Shown here one piece after another: positions 11,021 to 60,975 of a stretch of 64,000 nt of DNA (positions are counted from its first letter, which is position 1; the number at the start of each line of letters is the position of its first letter). The stretch is from positions 24,195,665-24,259,664 of the forward strand of contig CM044965.1 of the NCBI GenBank assembly GCA_024516035.1, written 5' to 3'. The position numbers and the translations under genes are program-made. This stretch comes from Bactericera cockerelli (Eukaryota; Arthropoda; Insecta; Hemiptera; Triozidae). A model generated the notes under the pieces. The model did no database searches. It was not told the DNA's origin and saw nothing but the letters and a program-made list of their open reading frames with translations.

Positions 11021-11095
11021 CTTGAAGTCAACTCGGATACCGTCGCAAGATAATGCAAGGTTAAATTCGTCTCTGATGCCTGTGAACCCATGGCG

Positions 11096-11890
11096 GAAGG
11101 ATGTGAAGAAATACTATTAGGAGAGGAGGAGGAAGGATGTGAAGAAATACTATTAGGAGAGGAGGAGGAAGGATGTGAAGAAATACTATTAGGAGAGGAG
11201 GAGGAAGGATGTGAAGAAATACTATTAGGAGTGGAGGAGGAAGGATGTGAAGAAATACTATTAGGAGTGGAGGAGGAAGGATGTGAAGAAATACTATTAG
11301 GAGAGGAGGAGGAAGGATGTGAAGAAATACTATTAGGAGTGGAGGAGGAAGGATGTGAAGAAATACTATTAGGAGAGGAGGAGGAAGGATGTGAAGAAAT
11401 ACTATTAGGAGAGGAGGAGGAAGGATGTGAAGAAATACTATTAGGAGAGGAGGAGGAAGGATGTGAAGAAATACTATTATTAGGAGAGGAGGAGGAAGGA
11501 TGTGAAGAAATACTATTAGGAGAGGAGGAGGAAGGATGTGAAGAAATACTATTAGGAGAGGAGGAGGAAGGATGTGAAGAAATACTATTAGGAGAGGACG
11601 AGGAAGGATGTGAAGAAATACTATTAGGAGAGGAGGAGGAAGGATGTGAAGAAATACTATTAGGAGAGGAGGAGGAAGGATGTGAAGAAATACTATTAGG
11701 AGAGGAGGAGGAAGGATGTGAAGAAATACTATTAGGAGAGGAGGAGGAAGGATGTGAAGAAATACTATTAGGAGTGGAGGAGGAAGGATGTGAAGAAATA
11801 CTATTAGGAGTGGAGGAGGAAGGATGTGAAGAAATACTATTAGGAGTGGAGGAGGAAGGATGTGAAGAAATACTATTAGGAGTGGAGGAG
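11096..11890. repeat. 36-bp minisatellite, 22 copies, open on both strands
   Basis: Twenty-two units encode EGCEEILLG(E/V)EE on the plus strand and SSPNSISSHPSS on the minus strand. The eleventh unit has a 3-bp insertion that adds one Leu. Both open frames are long (plus 11090-11944; minus 11985-11011) because the 36-bp period is a multiple of three and the unit has no stop in two frames. An ATG at 11090 has C at -3 and G at +4. The flank at 11890-12070 is degenerate GGAAGGA/GAGAAGGAG. I see no domain or splice sites and favour non-coding satellite. Confidence 0.9.
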
Positions 11891-12070
11891 GAAGGAACTG
11901 AGAAGGAGAAGGAAGGGATTGAGAAGGAGGAAGGAAGGGATTGAGAAGGAGAAGGAGGAAGGAAGGATTGAGAAGGAGGAAGCAAGAGATTGAGAAGAAG
12001 GAAGGAAGGATTGAGGAGGAGAAGGAGGAAGTAAGAAGGAACTAGAATAATGAGGAGGAAGATGGAACAA

Positions 12071-39940: not shown

Positions 39941-40890
39941 TATATTAGAGTGAATACCAGTGGAGGCCGTTACAAAATTTCGTTACAACCTTAAAACAGA
40001 GGTACGAACACGATTTACAACAGGTGATCTATTCAAAGCTATAAAATCAACAAAGAACTCAAAGGCGCTAGGCCCTGACAATCTATCACCTGTAATGTTA
40101 AAACACATCGGTCCCAAATGTGCCAACTACTTGACAGAGCTTTTCAACCTTTGCATTCAAGAGCTAAAAATACCTGATATCTGGAAAGTAAGCAAGATAA
40201 TACCTCTCTTGAAACCAGGCAAACCTGCAGATGCATCAACATCATACCGCCCTATATCACTCTTATCTCCAGTTATGAAGATATTTGAGAAGCTGGTACT
40301 GAGTATACTTAATGATCACTTGGAGTCAGCAGAACATCAGCATGGCTTCAAGAAGAATAGGAGTACAACTACGGCACTGCACCATGTCACAGACTTTATT
40401 CAAAGAGGATTAAATGAGAAACGCCCTAATAAACGCTCAATTCTAGTGGCCTTAGATTTATCAAGGGCATTTGACACAGTATGCCACAGCACCTTACTAA
40501 AGGACATTTTGGACTCTAATCTTCCAAATGATATCAAGAGGATCCTAGCAATATATTTAAGGGGGCGACAAACTTATGTAGAGTATAGAGGTACTAAATC
40601 CTCTTACAGGAAAGTAAAACAAGGAGTTCCACAGGGCAGCATAATATCCCCAGTACTTTTCAACCACAACGACATCCAAACCTTGTATGATAAAATTAAC
40701 CCCTATCTTGAAACACTAAACACCTGGTTCAAAGAAAGAAAACTCGTGCTCAGTGCAGAAAAATCCTCGGCCACCTTATTCACTACATGGAACCTAGAAA
40801 TCAACACTAACCTCGACATCAAAATTGGAGGAAACTCTATCACCACCATAAAACACCCTAAGATACTTGGTGTCACACTCGACAATCTCC

Positions 40891-41707
40891 GGACGACACC
40901 TGATTCCGTCCCGCGAGTTTTTTCTCTCAGGTAGTCGATACTCGATTCCGTCCCGAACCTCTCAGATCAATCACTGAATTCCGTCCCGTCACTTATCTTA
41001 TGCACCTATGTACTATGTACATAAGTAACTGATATTATGTATTAGGCTATGTACAAGTTCGGTGCGAGGCATGGCCTATATTGTATTTTACCTAACCCTA
41101 CTATAAACCCAAGGCATGGCCTTCATTGTATTTTACCTAACCCTACTATAAACCCAAGGCATGGCCGTCATTGTATTTTACCTAACCCTACTATAAACTC
41201 AAGGCATGGCCTTCATTTTATTTTACCTAACCCTACTATAAACCCAAGGCATGGCCTTCATTGTATTTTACCTAACCCTACTATAAACCCAAGGCATGGC
41301 CGTCATTGTATTTTACCTAACCCTACTATATAAACTCAAGGCATGGCCTTCATTGTATTTTACCTAACCCTACTATAAACCCAAGGCATGGCCGTCATTG
41401 TATTTTACCTAACCCTACTATAAACTCAAGGCATGGCCTTCATTGTATTTTACCTAACCATACTATGAACCCTAGGCATGGCCTTAATTTTTTTATTTTA
41501 CGTGATTGAAAATAAACTGATGAAAAATGTTGAATTTATAATTTATGTATTTATTTATGTATATAGGACGGAACATATGGGATGGAATCGGGTATTGAAC
41601 CCTTACGATGACCGGACGGAATCAGGTGTTAAAATATTGACGGGACGGAATCGACGGGACGGAATAAGGTGAAAAAAAGGTAAATGGGACGGAAAACGGT
41701 GCCTCCC
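40891..41707. mobile_element. TIR element with 8-bp target duplication, inside LINE-A
   Basis: Flanked by CAATCTCC at 40883-40890 and 41708-41715. The outer 22 bp are imperfect inverted repeats (16 of 22, ending in TTCCGTCCC), and GATTCCGTCCCG/CGGGACGGAATC words recur inside both ends. Without it, the LINE-A reading frame runs through in phase, which proves both the insertion and its boundaries. An 8-bp duplication fits hAT or P superfamilies. There is no transposase. The middle is the minisatellite below. Confidence 0.92.
41069..41490. repeat. 45-bp minisatellite within the TIR element, about 9 copies
   Basis: Unit AAGGCATGGCCTTCATTGTA + TTTTACCTAACCCTACTATA + AACCC, in near-perfect head-to-tail copies, with CTTC/CGTC alternation and CCC/CTC alternation at the unit joint. 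The CCTAACCCTA word looks telomere-like, but the unit is 45 bp and is not a telomeric array. Confidence 0.9.
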
Positions 41708-45906: not shown

Positions 45907-48900
45907 CTAGCTTAGTTGGTCATTTAAAAATTCGTCAATCGAAAAATATGCCTTTTCTAATAATAATTCTTTAACATGGCTTTTAAAAATTTGATATGGC
46001 ATTTCTATTACATTAGCTGGTAATTTGTTGATGAATTTATAACAGTAAAAATTGGGACCATTTTGACTCTTAGTAAGTCTTACAAAGTCAGCTCTGAATT
46101 CATTCCGATGTCTAGTATCATGGGGATGGATTTGACTGTGTCTCACATAGTTAGAAATATTACTTTTGGCATGTAACAAGCAGTTTATAATGTAAATACA
46201 AGGAAAGGTAAGAATACGTAAGGTTTTGAAAGCATCCTGGCAAGGAGCTCTATAGGGTAGTTTTCCAACTATTCTCACAGCTTTTCTTTGTAACCTGAAT
46301 GCACGTATTCTCTCTGCTGAGTGACCCCAAGCCAATAGGGAATAACTCAAATGTGATTCAACCAGTCCAAAATATACGACTCTGAGAACCTCTTGAGAAA
46401 CGCAGGAGGAGAGATTTCTCAGAAGGTAAATATTTTTACCAAGTTTTTTAGCAATGTGGTTTATATGAGCCTCCCAGCATAAATTTGGCTGAAGTTGAGT
46501 ACCTAATAATGTAACCGAGTCAGGATTTTCAAAACCTTCTGCATTTCTCAATGTAAATAATACTTTCTCAGTTTTATTTTTATTGATGAACAGTCTGTTT
46601 GCTGAGAACCATTGTTCTACCTTACTCAACATATGAGATAGTAATAATTCACAATGCTCAAGGTCAGTAGTTGTTCTTGTAAATGTTGAGTCGTCAGCAA
46701 ATAAAACAGTATCTTCCTCATTCATAAAATCAGGTATGTCATTTATGTAAATTAAAAACAGTACAACTCCTAGAATCGACCCCTGCGGTACGCCAGAAGT
46801 TATGTCACTCATGTCTGACACATCCTGGCCAGGACAAGACTCGATCCTAAAAAGACTATTGTCAGATGGATCCTGATTTGAAAGGGAGATTAACTCGTTA
46901 TTTTTATTTGACTTAATAACCTTACACACTGTTTACGACCAGTTAAATAAGATTTGATAAATTGCAGACTTGTAGAATCAAAATGATATTTACCTAGTTT
47001 TTGAATCATAATGTCATGGCATACGGTATCAAAAGCCTTGCTTACGTCACAAAAAAGTGTACAAGCAAACTTTTTTTCTTCATATGCTTTCAAAATTGTG
47101 TCAACTAATTTTAAAACCGCATCAGAAGTAGACCTTTTTTCGCGAAAGCCAAATTGAAATTTCGAAAAAAGATGATTTTTGATAAAATAATCGGTGATCT
47201 GAAACTTTACTATCTTTTCAAATATCTTTGAAAAAATTGGAAGAACAGATATTGGTCTATAGTTCTCAATGAGCTTGGCATTACCTTTTTTGGGAAGTGG
47301 TGTAACAGCTGCAATTTTCAAACAATCAGGGAAAACTCCCTCTCTTAATGAATAATTGATCAGTTTTGTCAAAGGTGTTAAAATGAGAAACTTAATTAAC
47401 AGCAAAATTTCTAAATCAAGACCATAGATATCTTTGGCTTTGGATTTATTTATTAAACCTAGATGTTTCAGCACGTAAGCACATGAAACCTCTTGAAAAC
47501 TAAACTGGACACTAGAGCTCAAATTAGTCTGAACCAAGTCAGCAGGTCTAATATCAACCAAGGGAGTTTTTTCCCTTATCTCGCTTACGGCTTTTAGAAA
47601 TTGCTCATTGTACTGAGCTGCGCTAAAATTATTAGGACAGACATTTTGCTTCTTCTTTTTAGTTCCTGCAATCTCCCACATTGCTTTGGACTTACTAGGA
47701 TTTGATAGAATTTTAGCATCATTTGCATGTGTTCTTGCCATATCAATTTCATTTTTGTACATTTTTCTAAAATTATTTTTGTAAGTCAAAATTTCAGGAA
47801 TTGGGTCTTGTTTACAAATAGCATAAAGATCCTTCAGTTCAGACCGCATTTGTTCAAGTTTTGGTGACCACCAGTTTGTACCTTCTGTTACATATTTTTT
47901 TACGCGCTTTTCTTTAAAAGGAAAAGAGATTCGGAACAGATTGTAAATAATGTCATGAAATCGTTGGAATTTGTTATTTATGTCTGTATTTTCTAAATCA
48001 ATAAAACTGAAGTCTGAAGATTGAACAGACTCATAAAAACGACGCTTTCCTTGTTCAGTAATAGGTCGATACCTGATGATTTCAGTTTCTTTAGTAAAAT
48101 CCCAGATGTTCATGTTCAAAATTTGGGCTCGGTGGTCTGATAGATTAAAATCATGTACATAAGTCATACAATCAAAGTCATGTGTGTTGATAAAGATATT
48201 GTCCAAACAGTTATTTCCCCGTGTAGGTACTTTAACTTGTGGTAAAAATCCATAGGATGCAAATAAGTCACATAAAACTTGTTTCTGACTATTGTTTGTA
48301 TGAAAGTGTACATTGAAGTCTCCACAAATAATAATTCTCTGCCTTTTAAATATCTTTGACAGTAATACTTCAAAAACATCAATAAGATCAGGAAAAGCTG
48401 CATTAGGTGACCTGTAAATTGTAATAATAATTAGATCTAATATTTCAATATGTACACTAGAGATCTCACAAACAAGCTCCACAGACAGTTTGTTTACATC
48501 ATCAAGTGGTGTTGACACAAACTTCCTGTGAACAAGTACCATGGATCCACCTCTAGGTACAATAGGTCTGGCGTAGTAAGAACCAACCTGATAATCATCT
48601 AGTAACAGAGCCTCTATTTCAGGACCCAATAAAAAGTGCTCTGTCAGACAAATAAAATCAAATTGAAATTCAGAGTTTCTTGTAGTGCTTTTGGTTAAAG
48701 CCTGCAATTCGGACACTTTCGATCTAAGTGATTGAATATTAAGGTGCATTAATTTTACAAGGGTTGTTTGATCACTTAGACTTAAATTTAAATTTTCCTT
48801 GTCTAGAATAATAGTTTCATTCTGACCAGTGTAATCCGGTGCACTTAGAATACTATCAAGCCGATTATTTACAACTTGGTAGGGACAAGGTTCACCGTTG

Positions 48901-49193
48901 TCTGATTGTTGCTGTGGAGCACAAATATCTACATGCGTTAACAAGGTAAAATAATAAAAACCTTCTTCAAGGATAGTGTCATCAAAATCTAAAATGCGTT
49001 GCTCGATATCTACTCGACGATAGATACTAGCATTTGTGTCAGTCACCTTTTCGGTGTTAAAATGCTGCGGATGGGAATCCACATTAATTAACTGAGAATC
49101 ACTTGCCTGTTCGGCCAGCACGTCAGCTAATAGATTCCTACCCTTCTTATGAGCAGTAGTCGTCAAGTGACTAGAAAAAACGGGGAGAGTTCA
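45907..49193 (-). pseudogene. LINE-B ORF2: endonuclease-reverse transcriptase, frameshifted
   Basis: The upstream open frame (49166-46890) contains the APE-type endonuclease, about residues 139-350: HLNIQSL (N143), CLTEH (E176), CGDFN (281-285), NLSDHR (341-346). It then has the start of the RT (ENYRPISVLP, LFCDVSKAFDTV). After GRKQC near 46922 the frame loses one base. The remaining part (46929-45907) holds GVPQGSILGVVLF, LFADD (the catalytic FADD intact) and a CR1-like C-terminus ending IDEFLNDQLS. The frame has no ATG near the ORF1/ORF2 junction: it opens after a stop at 49193-49191 and overlaps ORF1 by about 20 nt, starting reading with TTG. All enzymatic motifs survive, so the copy is young. 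Confidence 0.85.
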
Positions 49194-51441
49194 TTGCTCC
49201 ATCACCACCATGATGGAAAGAACGGTTAGTAAACATACGGCTGCGACCATATGTTCCAGGAGGAGCACCCACATGAGCACAAGAGCAGGTATGTTGACCA
49301 CCATAGCGGCGCGGCTCAACCATACCGCTCATGTACCGGCGTGGAGGCTCACTGGTTTGACGAGGGCGTTCATGGTAGTAATTATTAGCAATGTTTCTCC
49401 TCTGATGGTAATGTACTCCATTACTATTCCTAATATGCCGAGGTAGACGAGACAATCCATAATTATTATAATTATTTCGTGTCTGATGAGATTTGTTGTT
49501 TACAAAAGTACGTCTAACTTGACTATAGTTTTGTTTAGATTGAATGTTTTTGAATGGTTCCCTGAGGTTTTGTTGAGAATTGTTATTGAAATGTTTCTGG
49601 ATTAATTTTGAAGTGCCATTTTTACTATTTTGAACTTTGAAACCAACCGATTGTGATGTTGTAGATGTCTTTATCTTATTGCGTACTTTATTAATGACTG
49701 AAAAATCTTTCTTCTCTACAATATGAGAGTATATCATATCACAGAACCTACGTCTACCTATACGGTTGAACTGATACCCGTCTCTATTGTAGTCACAGTC
49801 TCTAATTACGTGGTCAGGATTCAAAATAAAAACATTCTTAGTTTTCAAATAGTCACTTACTCTAGTGTTGAAAGAATGAATGTGATAGTTGAACTGAGAT
49901 TCACCTCTACGGGGTGGAACAAGAACAAAACCAAGTTTACAAGAGGAGAATTTCCTGACAATCTGATCTAGCTGATGCTTAACACGTTGCCATGATGTTT
50001 TACATACGTCATTAGAGCCAGCACAGATTATCATGACATCCCCAGCTCCTTGTTTCCCAATTTTGAACTCACAGATATTTTCAACACCAGATTGGTTTTT
50101 AAACCAACACTTTACGTTATACTTGCTAGAGAATCTCTTCTTCAGTTGATTTTCTATATTTTGAACAAGGTTGTCACCGATAACTGTAATAGAGGCTGTA
50201 CTAGGTGATGTCACAGGCGGTGTTCTTGCATGTCCATCGCCTACATTGAAAACTGATGGGTGATTAGCCGATTTGTTCGTATTGCTGTCGGGTTTCTTTA
50301 GAGAGGGTTTCATCTGTGATGGCGTTGCAGTAGGTTTTGATGTATTATGTTGATGCGATTGACCTTCTTTTATACCCTGTATATCTTTTTCCAGTGTTTT
50401 GATTTCATTCTCCAAATCCAAGAATTTGCTGACGGAGACATAGCACTCTGCTGATTGTTGATACTGGTTAGAAGTAGTAACAGTTGCTCTGCAGTCCTGA
50501 TTACCAGATGGTGTGACGTCATCTCGCCTGGCACTGTGCTGCACAGTTATATCAGCTTCAGTATACTGGGTGAATTCAGATTTCTGAGCGTGATTGTTGT
50601 CCTGTTCAAATTCTATTTTGTTCTGGATAATAGAATTTGTTTGAGAAATGCAGGTTGAACATTTGACTGGAGATTTTAATTGTTTCTCTAGTTGTCTTGT
50701 TAGATTCTGAATAATTTTGTCCTGCTCTTTTTTCGAGTCGATATATTGCTTGATGTGCTCCTCATGTTCTTCCAGAATGGCTTGATTCCTTAGTTCATAT
50801 TGTTTGATTTTTTCTGAGGCACATGATAAGTTATTATGAAGAGTGTTCACTTTCTCCGAAAGTGTTTCTTTGCATAAGTTCAATTATTCTATTTCAGCGC
50901 ATTTTTTGTTTAAGAGCTTGAACATATTACATATTAACTTATTAATTGTTGATACATCATGGAAGTTGGTTTCTTTGAATTTTTGATTCATTATGTCAAT
51001 TTCTCTCTTTATTTGAACAAAAATGTCTTGGACTTGATGTGTTGGTTCAATATTATCAAGAAAATCCCTTGTATCATCTTCAGTAATGGTGCGGGAGAAG
51101 GATAATTCATCAACACAGTTCTCATATACTGTTTGCTCAAGAGTCTGAGCTTGAACATTGTTCTGATTTGTTTTGTCCGTAGATCTCATGAATCTTCGAG
51201 AGCAACGAAGAATGTCATTGTGCGTTTGTTTCAGAGCAATAAATTTGTACTCAAAACTATTGCTATTGTTAGATGCTCTTACCCGTTGAACGGTGATACT
51301 GCCTTGGCAGTCTGGTCGAATGCACTGGAAGATTGCAGTGTTGTTGGTAGGTGAAGTAGAGTATGCATAAGTGAATCCCAGATGTACGATTGTGGTAACT
51401 CCATTCTGATGAACTACTTGAAAGTCTGTAGGAGCCGACAT
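49171..51441 (-). pseudogene. LINE-B ORF1 with one in-frame stop
   Basis: The first part is 51441-50884 (185 codons), starting MSAPTDFQVV. It has a FLYWCH-like zinc-finger pattern: aromatic residues (FTYAYS), C40, C45 and H74, with D76 where the second His is expected. A TAA at 50886-50884 interrupts the frame. The same frame continues at once for 570 codons: coiled coil about 1-70, Gln/Ser-rich linker, then an SGNH-hydrolase-like domain about 230-385 (VIGDN 234-238, AGSND 288-292, RDGYQFN 367-373). The nucleophile Ser is Asn and the catalytic His is not in place, so it may not be an active esterase. The tail is Arg/Tyr-rich. ORF1 proteins bind the element's RNA. Whether the stop is a mutation or separates two natural ORFs needs other copies. 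Confidence 0.8.
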
Positions 51442-52079
51442 GTTGAGTCATCCAGTATACTGATGAGGATGTTATGAGTTCACTTACTTCATACTTCACT
51501 ATTGTGTTTGTTTACTTAGCAAGTTGGTATACAACATTGAGTTCTTGTGATACGCGACCAAGGTCTTTTTTAAAATGTAAACAAAAACAATAATCACTGT
51601 TAATATTACGATAAAAATTCAAAATTATACAGCTGAATTAGCTAAAATGTGCCCTCACATAGGTGCTAAAATTATTTTAATTGGGCCAAAATTTAAGATT
51701 AAAAAGTGATGAATATTGATATAAGTTGCACTGTAAAACACTATGTGGTTGATTAATGGCGATTATTTTACAATATTTACACGGAGCGAGTTAGAATACA
51801 CGTCCTACACGAGTGACTACCAACCAAGAACATTGAGTTGTATATGATATATCTTTAAAGCTCGTATGAGTTTTTGTTCTCGGGTTATGGCCGAAAATGT
51901 CAGCTCAACCTCGAAAATTTGGCAAATTTCCAAACTTTGAGGCCAGAGCGGGTCCTGTTAACGTACTCTGATTGCCTTGAAATTTTGTCTATCTCAATTT
52001 CTGCAAAAGCCGAACTCATTTCTGCCTGAGCGTTGTAAAAATTAAGATATTGATTTTTTAAAACCAGTCTATTGTACAT

Positions 52080-53402: not shown

Positions 53403-53479
53403 TCCTATGCAGCAACCGGGTGAGCCAAATGACCAGGACTTATCATGACATAGAAGCAGTGACTCGACTTTTGGAAGAG
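53403..53479 (+). CDS. milt: milton/TRAK, coding exon 2
   Basis: A 77-nt exon that starts with the last two bases of codon 611 (Val) and encodes [20 protein letters not shown] followed by RLLEE, residues 612-636. It ends at phase 0 before GTAAGT (53480). This is the hallmark start of the HAP1_N/TRAK conserved region: a Q-M-T-x-T-Y-x-D-I-E-A-V-T-x-L-L-E-E run found in milton and in TRAK1/2, which continues into a coiled coil. Family knowledge places it at the beginning of the domain binding kinesin heavy chain. The exon lies 33 kb from exon 1 and 6.5 kb from exon 3. Identification is very secure. Confidence 0.97.
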
Positions 53480-59984: not shown

Positions 59985-60659
59985 AAAGAGAAAGACTTGG
60001 AGCTGACCGCGCGGATCGGCAAGGAACTTCTCGCCACCAATCAGAAGCTAGAGTCCACGGTAGCCTCCCTCGACAACGAGCTACGAGTCGCCAACGAGAA
60101 CATCACACAGCTCACTCATGAACTGGTTCAGAAAAATGAACTGCTCACCATACTCACCAACGATGCTCAGGACTCTGAAGATGACTCAGGTAAGAGACTC
60201 GCTCGTGACCTGGTTCAGAAAAATGAACTGCTCACCATACTCACCAATGACGCTCAGGACTCTGAAGATGACTCAGGTAAGAGACTCGCTCGTGAACTGG
60301 TTCAGAAAAATGAACTGCTCACCAATGATGCTCAGGACTCTGAAGATGACTCAGGTAAAAGACTCGCTCGTGAACTGGTTCAGAAAAATGAACTGCTCAC
60401 CATACTCACCAATGACGCTCAGGACTCTGAAGATGACTCAGGTAAGAGACTCGCTCGTGAACTGGTTCAGAAAAATGAACTGCTCATCAATGATGCCCAG
60501 GACTCTGAAGATGACTCAGGTAAGAGACTCGCTCGTGAACTGGTTCAGAAAAATGAACTGCTCACCATACTCACCAATGATGCACAGGACTCTGAAGATG
60601 ACTCAGGTAAGAGACTCGCTCGTGAACTGGTTCAGAAAAATGAACTACTCACCGAATAG
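59985..60659 (+). CDS. milt: milton/TRAK, coding exon 3 with tandemly repeated 5' splice sites
   Basis: Starts after AG at 59984, phase 0: KEKDLELTARIGKELLATNQ. This continues the coiled coil and includes the CC1-box-like motif (L-T-A-R-I-G-K-E-L-L, residues 643-652; the usual first Ala is Thr), a dynein-adaptor signature in TRAK proteins. The minimal exon ends at 60189 (68 codons plus G), right after DAQDSEDDS. Further donors with GT at 60277, 60355, 60442, 60520 and 60607 end the exon in the same phase. Using later ones adds repeats of about 29 or 26 residues (GKRLARELVQKNELLT core). The frame stays open to a TAG at 60657-60659. By comparison with the family, the first donor is the ancestral one, and the open extension up to the stop need not be translated. 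The gene continues beyond the window. Confidence 0.93.
   Translation, partial: KEKDLELTARIGKELLATNQKLESTVASLDNELRVANENITQLTHELVQKNELLTILTNDAQDSEDDSGKRLARDLVQKNELLTILTNDAQDSEDDSGKRLARELVQKNELLTNDAQDSEDDSGKRLARELVQKNELLTILTNDAQDSEDDSGKRLARELVQKNELLINDAQDSEDDSGKRLARELVQKNELLTILTNDAQDSEDDSGKRLARELVQKNELLTE
60112..60656 (+). repeat. Exon-intron junction tandem repeat, 87/78-bp units
   Basis: Units are GTAAGAGACTCGCTCGTGAA, CTGGTTCAGAAAAATGAACT, GCTCACCATACTCACC, AATGACGCTCAGGACTCTGA, AGATGACTCAG. Donor spacing is 87, 78, 87, 78, 87. The 78-bp form lacks nine bases (ATACTCACC, Ile-Leu-Thr). Unit 3's donor is GTAAAA rather than GTAAGA. All lengths are multiples of three. The unit combines the 3' end of the exon with the first 17 bases or so of the intron, so the duplication spans the splice site. 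Confidence 0.95.
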
Positions 60660-60975
60660 AGACTCATAAAAGTCTCATAACTCATTTTATATGAACTGGG
60701 TCAAAAAATGAACTACGCAACTGCCCGGTTAAAGAATTATCTACAACTTATTCATGTACTGATTTAGAAATATGAACTATTCACGTGGTTAGAGACTCAT
60801 AACTCATTCATGAACTGGTTCAAAATAATGAACTACTCACCAAGGTAAAGACTCACAACTCACTCATAAACTTGTAAAGAAATGATCACTATACTCACCA
60901 ATGATTCTGAGAACTCTAAATATCACCTAGGTACCTTGGACTGGTTCAGAAAAATGACTCCTCACTAATAAAGTT
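60660..60975 (+). repeat. Decayed copies of the exon 3 repeat
   Basis: About five degenerate units follow the stop: ATATGAACTGGGTCAAAAAA, CATGTACTGATTTAGAAATA, TTCATGAACTGGTTCAAAAT (with CAAGGTAAAG, a donor-like word, GT at 60845), CTCATAAACTTGTAAAGAAA with CTATACTCACCAATGATTCT, and TTGGACTGGTTCAGAAAAAT. They carry stops and indels in all frames. The array is therefore an old and repeatedly amplified structure, of which the first six or seven units have been kept open or recently homogenised. Confidence 0.85.

Follow-up and report, generated by a model that had tools for sequence, protein, structure and literature searches.

A minisatellite across an exon-intron border repeats a 5' splice site in phase in the milton gene of Bactericera cockerelli

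We identified a tandem array in the milton gene of Bactericera cockerelli in which the end of exon 3 and its 5' splice site are repeated, presenting six consensus-like donors (7.5-11.0 bits) to one common acceptor, that of exon 4 (C11:24261449). The common phase of the donors and the open frame across all units, both predicted originally from the DNA alone, were confirmed; the frame is open from 59985 to the TAG at 60657-60659. Positions are those of the window, the whole stretch of 64,000 nucleotides that was analysed (G000:C11:24195665-24259664), unless a contig or locus is given. As a repeat, the array is far beyond chance. It is probably a tolerated exon-border minisatellite which is a by-product of a duplication-rich genome, is compatible with coding by happenstance and resembles the VNTR of the human CBS gene.

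The array lies on the plus strand directly 3' of exon 3 (59985..60189) and consists of copies of the last ~81 bases of that exon plus GTAAGA, arranged head to tail. The source copy is the exon end itself (60109..60189; TRF and sequence), and TRF finds head-to-tail units of more than 10 bp covering the exon end at 60189, which makes this a minisatellite across the exon-intron border. The source copy is followed by unit 1 (60190..60276, 87 bp), which starts with the ancestral donor, unit 2 (60277..60354, 78 bp), unit 3 (60355..60441, 87 bp), unit 4 (60442..60519, 78 bp), unit 5 (60520..60606, 87 bp) and the partial unit 6 (60607..60656). The six donor GTs were all found where they had been predicted, at 60190, 60277, 60355, 60442, 60520 and 60607, with a spacing of 87/78/87/78/87. 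TRF describes the array as 87 bp x 6.4 (60111-60653) with a higher-order unit of 165 bp (87+78) and 97% match. Among the 87-bp units 2-3 of 87 positions differ, and among the 78-bp units 2 of 78. The first in-frame stop past the array (TAG, 60657..60659, plus strand) is followed on the same strand by decayed, frame-broken and stop-containing unit copies (60660..60969, end approximate). This decayed tail contains a 56-bp repeat (60743-60872) and matches the array at 90% in 60804-60842 and at 72% in 60876-60969. A search of the 565-Mb assembly with the array as query matched, apart from the array, two pieces of its decayed tail and no further copies.

Five of the six donors read CAG/GTAAGA (11.0 bits; the slash marks the exon-intron border) and are identical 9-mers, and nothing in the donor sequence favours the first. 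The prediction of a repeated GTAAGA therefore holds for these five donors and not for that of unit 3 at 60355, which reads CAG/GTAAAA and is the weakest (7.5 bits); all bit scores come from an approximate matrix. The view that GTAAGAGACTCGCTCGT is former intron sequence was likewise borne out in part: the intronic portion of each unit amounts to about its first six to nine bases, and the next stretch, CTCGCTCGTGAACTGG, is a copy of the exon's CTCACTCATGAACTGG which has diverged.

Exon 3, which ends in phase 1, belongs to the HAP1_N/TRAK coiled coil as proposed, with matches to PF04849 HAP1_N (E 1.7e-20) and to the TRAK2 chain 9dgv_a (E 1.8e-7). It contains ELTARIGKELL, which we take to be a CC1-box-like motif. 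The preceding exon 2 (53403..53479, plus strand) has an unduplicated donor (GAAGAG/GTAAGT), and exon 4 starts 5.6 kb past the first donor of exon 3, beyond the window. Our gene model begins at exon 1b, and exons 1b-12 form a single open frame of 818 amino acids, or of 957 when the last donor of exon 3 is used. Exon 4 joins in frame from each of the six donors: the five extra donors are all in phase and stop-free, in agreement with the claim that every donor keeps the downstream frame. Among the matches listed, the closest full-length proteins are those of Cacopsylla melanoneura and Diaphorina citri and an 849-amino-acid protein (65% identity over 827 amino acids). The 818-amino-acid model is 72% identical to milton of Cacopsylla over 792 amino acids, 71% to that of Diaphorina over 804 and 46% to that of Nilaparvata over 828. 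The HAP1_N coiled coil and the nearly end-to-end alignment of the model with psyllid milton place the gene in the milton/TRAK family. An intron of milton also contains long open reading frames at 45907-51447 (minus strand) and 39954-40934 (plus strand) which by eye look like non-LTR retrotransposons, with endonuclease- and reverse-transcriptase-like stretches, and the intron between exons 1b and 2 contains large minisatellites at 11095-11896 (36 bp x 22.2) and 41067-41489 (45 bp x 9.4).

The open frame was considered as proof that the array is coding and was rejected as such. Another forward frame, which starts at 60100, likewise has no stop over the array, and only 10 of the 261 possible single changes per unit create a stop in the coding frame, so that the open frame alone is weak evidence. 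The unit lengths, all multiples of three, go back to just two changes in length, the initial 87 bp and a single difference of 9 bp, and by our estimate would come out this way by chance in about 1 of 9 cases. Among units 1-6 (units 1-5 plus the CTG/CTA change of unit 6) seven events were counted in six columns; six of the seven fall on third codon positions (p 0.007), as do five of the six columns (p 0.018), and two of the seven are nonsynonymous compared to 71-74% expected (p 0.016-0.025). This third-position bias is a weak hint of coding use, as if the array were translated, and the numbers are small. Exchange with the real exon could produce an identical third-position pattern.

In milton of Cacopsylla and Diaphorina, both psyllids, exon 4 directly follows the end of exon 3, with the joint where donor 1 lies. 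A motif count over 277 homologous proteins (sets of 78, 79 and 120, the last being the best 120 of 325 matches) found one copy of the exon-end motif in 235, none in 42 and two or more in none. Three exon fragments with 82-85% identity were also found. P0001 extends 22 residues past the exon with no second unit, and P0002 and P0003 extend just five residues past the exon before stopping. The check for the array in related species that had been proposed was thus carried out at the level of proteins and short fragments, in which no array was present. Protein searches returned no array-bearing product, and no donor array in milton or TRAK is described in the titles and abstract openings of the open-licence literature searched.

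Local duplication at splice junctions of milton is not confined to exon 3. By inspection, 6 of the 11 donors (exons 3, 4, 5, 7, 9 and 11) are locally duplicated and those of exons 1b, 2, 6, 8 and 10 are not. The exon 4 donor array (L004:5937-6394; C11:24261596-24262053) has 26-bp units inside 122/148-bp ones and carries 13 extra GTGAGT donors, 12 of them with the 9-mer of the first donor and none both in phase and stop-free. At exon 5, an array of 37 bp x 15 (L004:7318-7877) starts exactly at the intron GT, and the extra donors scored are weaker (5.5 bits). The exon 7 donor is present in two copies 63 bp apart, the second of which is stronger (12.9 vs 11.0 bits); this junction was considered as a second in-frame ladder and rejected, as the copy is in phase, yet a stop intervenes. 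The donor of exon 9 has a copy 308 bp downstream and that of exon 11 lies in an array of 31 bp x 6.2 (L005:4644-4836). On the acceptor side, a 73/135-bp array ends at the acceptor of exon 4 (L004:5353-5792) and a copy with 28/30 matches lies 160 bp upstream of the acceptor of exon 7 (L004:9605-9880).

At the five other duplicated junctions none of the 34 extra donors is in phase and stop-free, compared to 5/5 at exon 3. Donor arrays therefore arise and persist in this gene without coding use. That exon 3 alone of the six junctions has a coding-compatible array is compatible with chance, its five donors sharing one history. Judged from the sequence, a productive milton mRNA would need the first donor at exons 4, 5, 7, 9 and 11, though the rival donors of exons 4 and 7 are equal or stronger. 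The frame shared with relatives comes only from the first donor at exons 4 and 7, suggesting that first donors win in milton.

When duplication was instead defined by a fixed cut-off, a match of 24/30 or better inside 700 nt, 4/11 donors and 1/12 acceptors of milton qualified, compared to 199/1500 positions drawn at random from the span (for the donors, binomial p 0.047); the donors of exons 5 and 7, with 18/30 and 22/30, did not reach it. In the span of exons 3-12, 461/2231 sampled positions are locally duplicated, and 145/1266 when positions -50 to +700 of each donor are left out; the span of exons 1b-3 gives 1107/9926. The surplus of duplication near milton donors stems from a handful of arrays. 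Among donor-like MAGGTRAG sites in the window, 6/11 on the plus strand are duplicated, five of these six being the exon 3 array, as are 4/7 on the minus strand, which are not milton donors.

Outside milton, exons of kinase and P450 genes were sampled (20 kinase exons from 134 matches listed, with short open frames, and 15 P450 exons from 93), with candidate donors chosen by the same approximate matrix without homology; one doubtful exon match (L054) and one weak donor (L045, 4.5 bits) are both counted. Duplication affects the top-scoring candidate donor in 4/20 kinase exons (background 170/1500) and 1/15 P450 exons (background 72/1500), in total 5/35 and near background, and the top-scoring candidate acceptor in 2/20 kinase exons. 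Further backgrounds are 41/1500 for kinase loci in which long open frames predominate, 106/1000 for L006-L007 and 101/1000 for the window. A general targeting of donors by duplication was rejected on these counts. Local duplication is frequent in this genome and splice junctions take part in it; nothing shows that donors are singled out, and milton is on the high side of donor duplication. Some kinase matches occur as equal-score pairs on one contig of G000 (C10:27591408/30367135, C9:10867910/11486519 and C2:23463131/23724913), and could represent either haplotypes left unmerged or recent duplications.

Arrays of this kind have precedents, and alternative donor use in the CBS VNTR was reportedly described by Lievers et al. 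in 2001. The 31-bp VNTR of human CBS is given as c.1444_1467+7(16_21), with 16-21 copies, in PMC2630376. We read this notation as 24 exonic and 7 intronic bases per unit with a donor in each unit. On that reading its units span an exon-intron border and each carries a donor, as in the milton array. In contrast, 31 bp is not divisible by three, whereas the milton units of 87 and 78 bp are and their frame is open; moreover, the CBS VNTR is known to be polymorphic, whereas the milton array is known from one assembly. In CBS 844ins68, according to the same paper, an intron/exon junction is present twice, and one of the two sites is strongly preferred in splicing (PMC2630376). In human paralogues, internal tandem repeats at exon-intron boundaries can alter splicing; there they form novel introns in segmental duplications, whereas milton has multiplied donors in a single-place gene (PMC2812944). 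In the potato RdRp gene a gained intron is attributed to a tandem duplication which crosses the intron-exon border and copies splice signals, as in milton; there the acceptor side was copied and the new intron was detected, whereas in milton it is the donor side and no gained intron is seen (PMC4974935). Border-spanning minisatellites are therefore already known, and the milton array adds an unusually clean phase.

If the array is a tolerated minisatellite, a ~87-bp piece made up of the last 81 bases of exon 3 and the GTAAGA of its 5' splice site would have been tandemly duplicated, after which a 9-bp deletion between direct CTCACC repeats would have shortened one copy. The resulting 165-bp pair would then have been amplified, with an older round leaving the decayed tail. 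One donor would dominate in most transcripts, most likely the ancestral first, and the array would be tolerated rather than selected. The shared phase and lack of stops at all five extra donors, the third-position bias, the five identical 9-mers and the modest, non-general enrichment of duplicated donors count against such a passive origin. The original prediction was that several donors are used alternatively, giving a ladder of milton isoforms. It agrees with the presence of six in-phase, consensus-like donors, five of them identical, which have no stops between them and each join exon 4 in frame, with the bias to third codon positions and with the changes in splicing that border tandem repeats can cause in human paralogues (PMC2812944). 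None of the donor arrays at the other milton junctions, however, permits such use, the array is absent from the relatives examined, and in two psyllid proteins the junction is that of the first donor. We consider a ladder unlikely.

Among identical donors, the acceptor-proximal one may be favoured. The main donor could then be that at 60607, nearest the acceptor, with the protein holding the whole array as 139 extra residues and the array evolving as coding sequence. The 957-amino-acid model is open with the last donor and the third-position bias between units points the same way, but a 139-residue insert would sit at a junction that is insert-free in two psyllid proteins, and exons 4, 5, 7, 9 and 11 need the first donor for the conserved frame, which makes this reading more doubtful than a ladder. 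Tandem arrays are prone to assembly error, and the number or order of units could be artefactual; equal- or near-equal-score matches on one contig elsewhere would fit unmerged haplotype copies in this assembly. The milton array, however, lies within a 29.3-Mb contig at a single place and its units differ by substitutions, and an artefact is very improbable. Recursive splicing at CAG/GTAAG was rejected, as no pyrimidine tract was seen by eye. A tolerated minisatellite thus remains our preferred explanation. If the downstream donors are unused, milton shows a gene surviving repeated duplication of splice junctions (6/11 donors), the transcript of which must still pick the right donor among copies. 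If they are used, the array would be a clean case of competition among identical 5' splice sites and a natural series of adaptor lengths with which to ask how the spacing of motor motifs sets dynein versus kinesin use.

The Spindly motif is presumably ESLAAELECSLFSEFS in exon 6. Judged from this placement, inserts, if made, would come to lie between the CC1 box and this motif. PMC10011603 states that dynein activation requires both elements and that the intervening region should extend along dynactin, so that inserts in this stretch could matter if made. Use of several donors might then yield graded dynein/kinesin adaptors, in which the spacing from CC1 box to Spindly motif grows by 29 or 26 residues per step; minisatellite mutation would determine how many steps there are, and coding selection would keep the frame open. 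We regard this as unlikely. In an alignment-free AlphaFold2 model (mean pLDDT 63) the extra blocks appear as separate helices of ~18-25 residues, mostly at a pLDDT of ~60 or less. The longer coiled coil predicted originally finds no support in this model, though its confidence is too low to count firmly against such a coil; the exon 3 helix spans 2-62 and ends in an acidic stretch.
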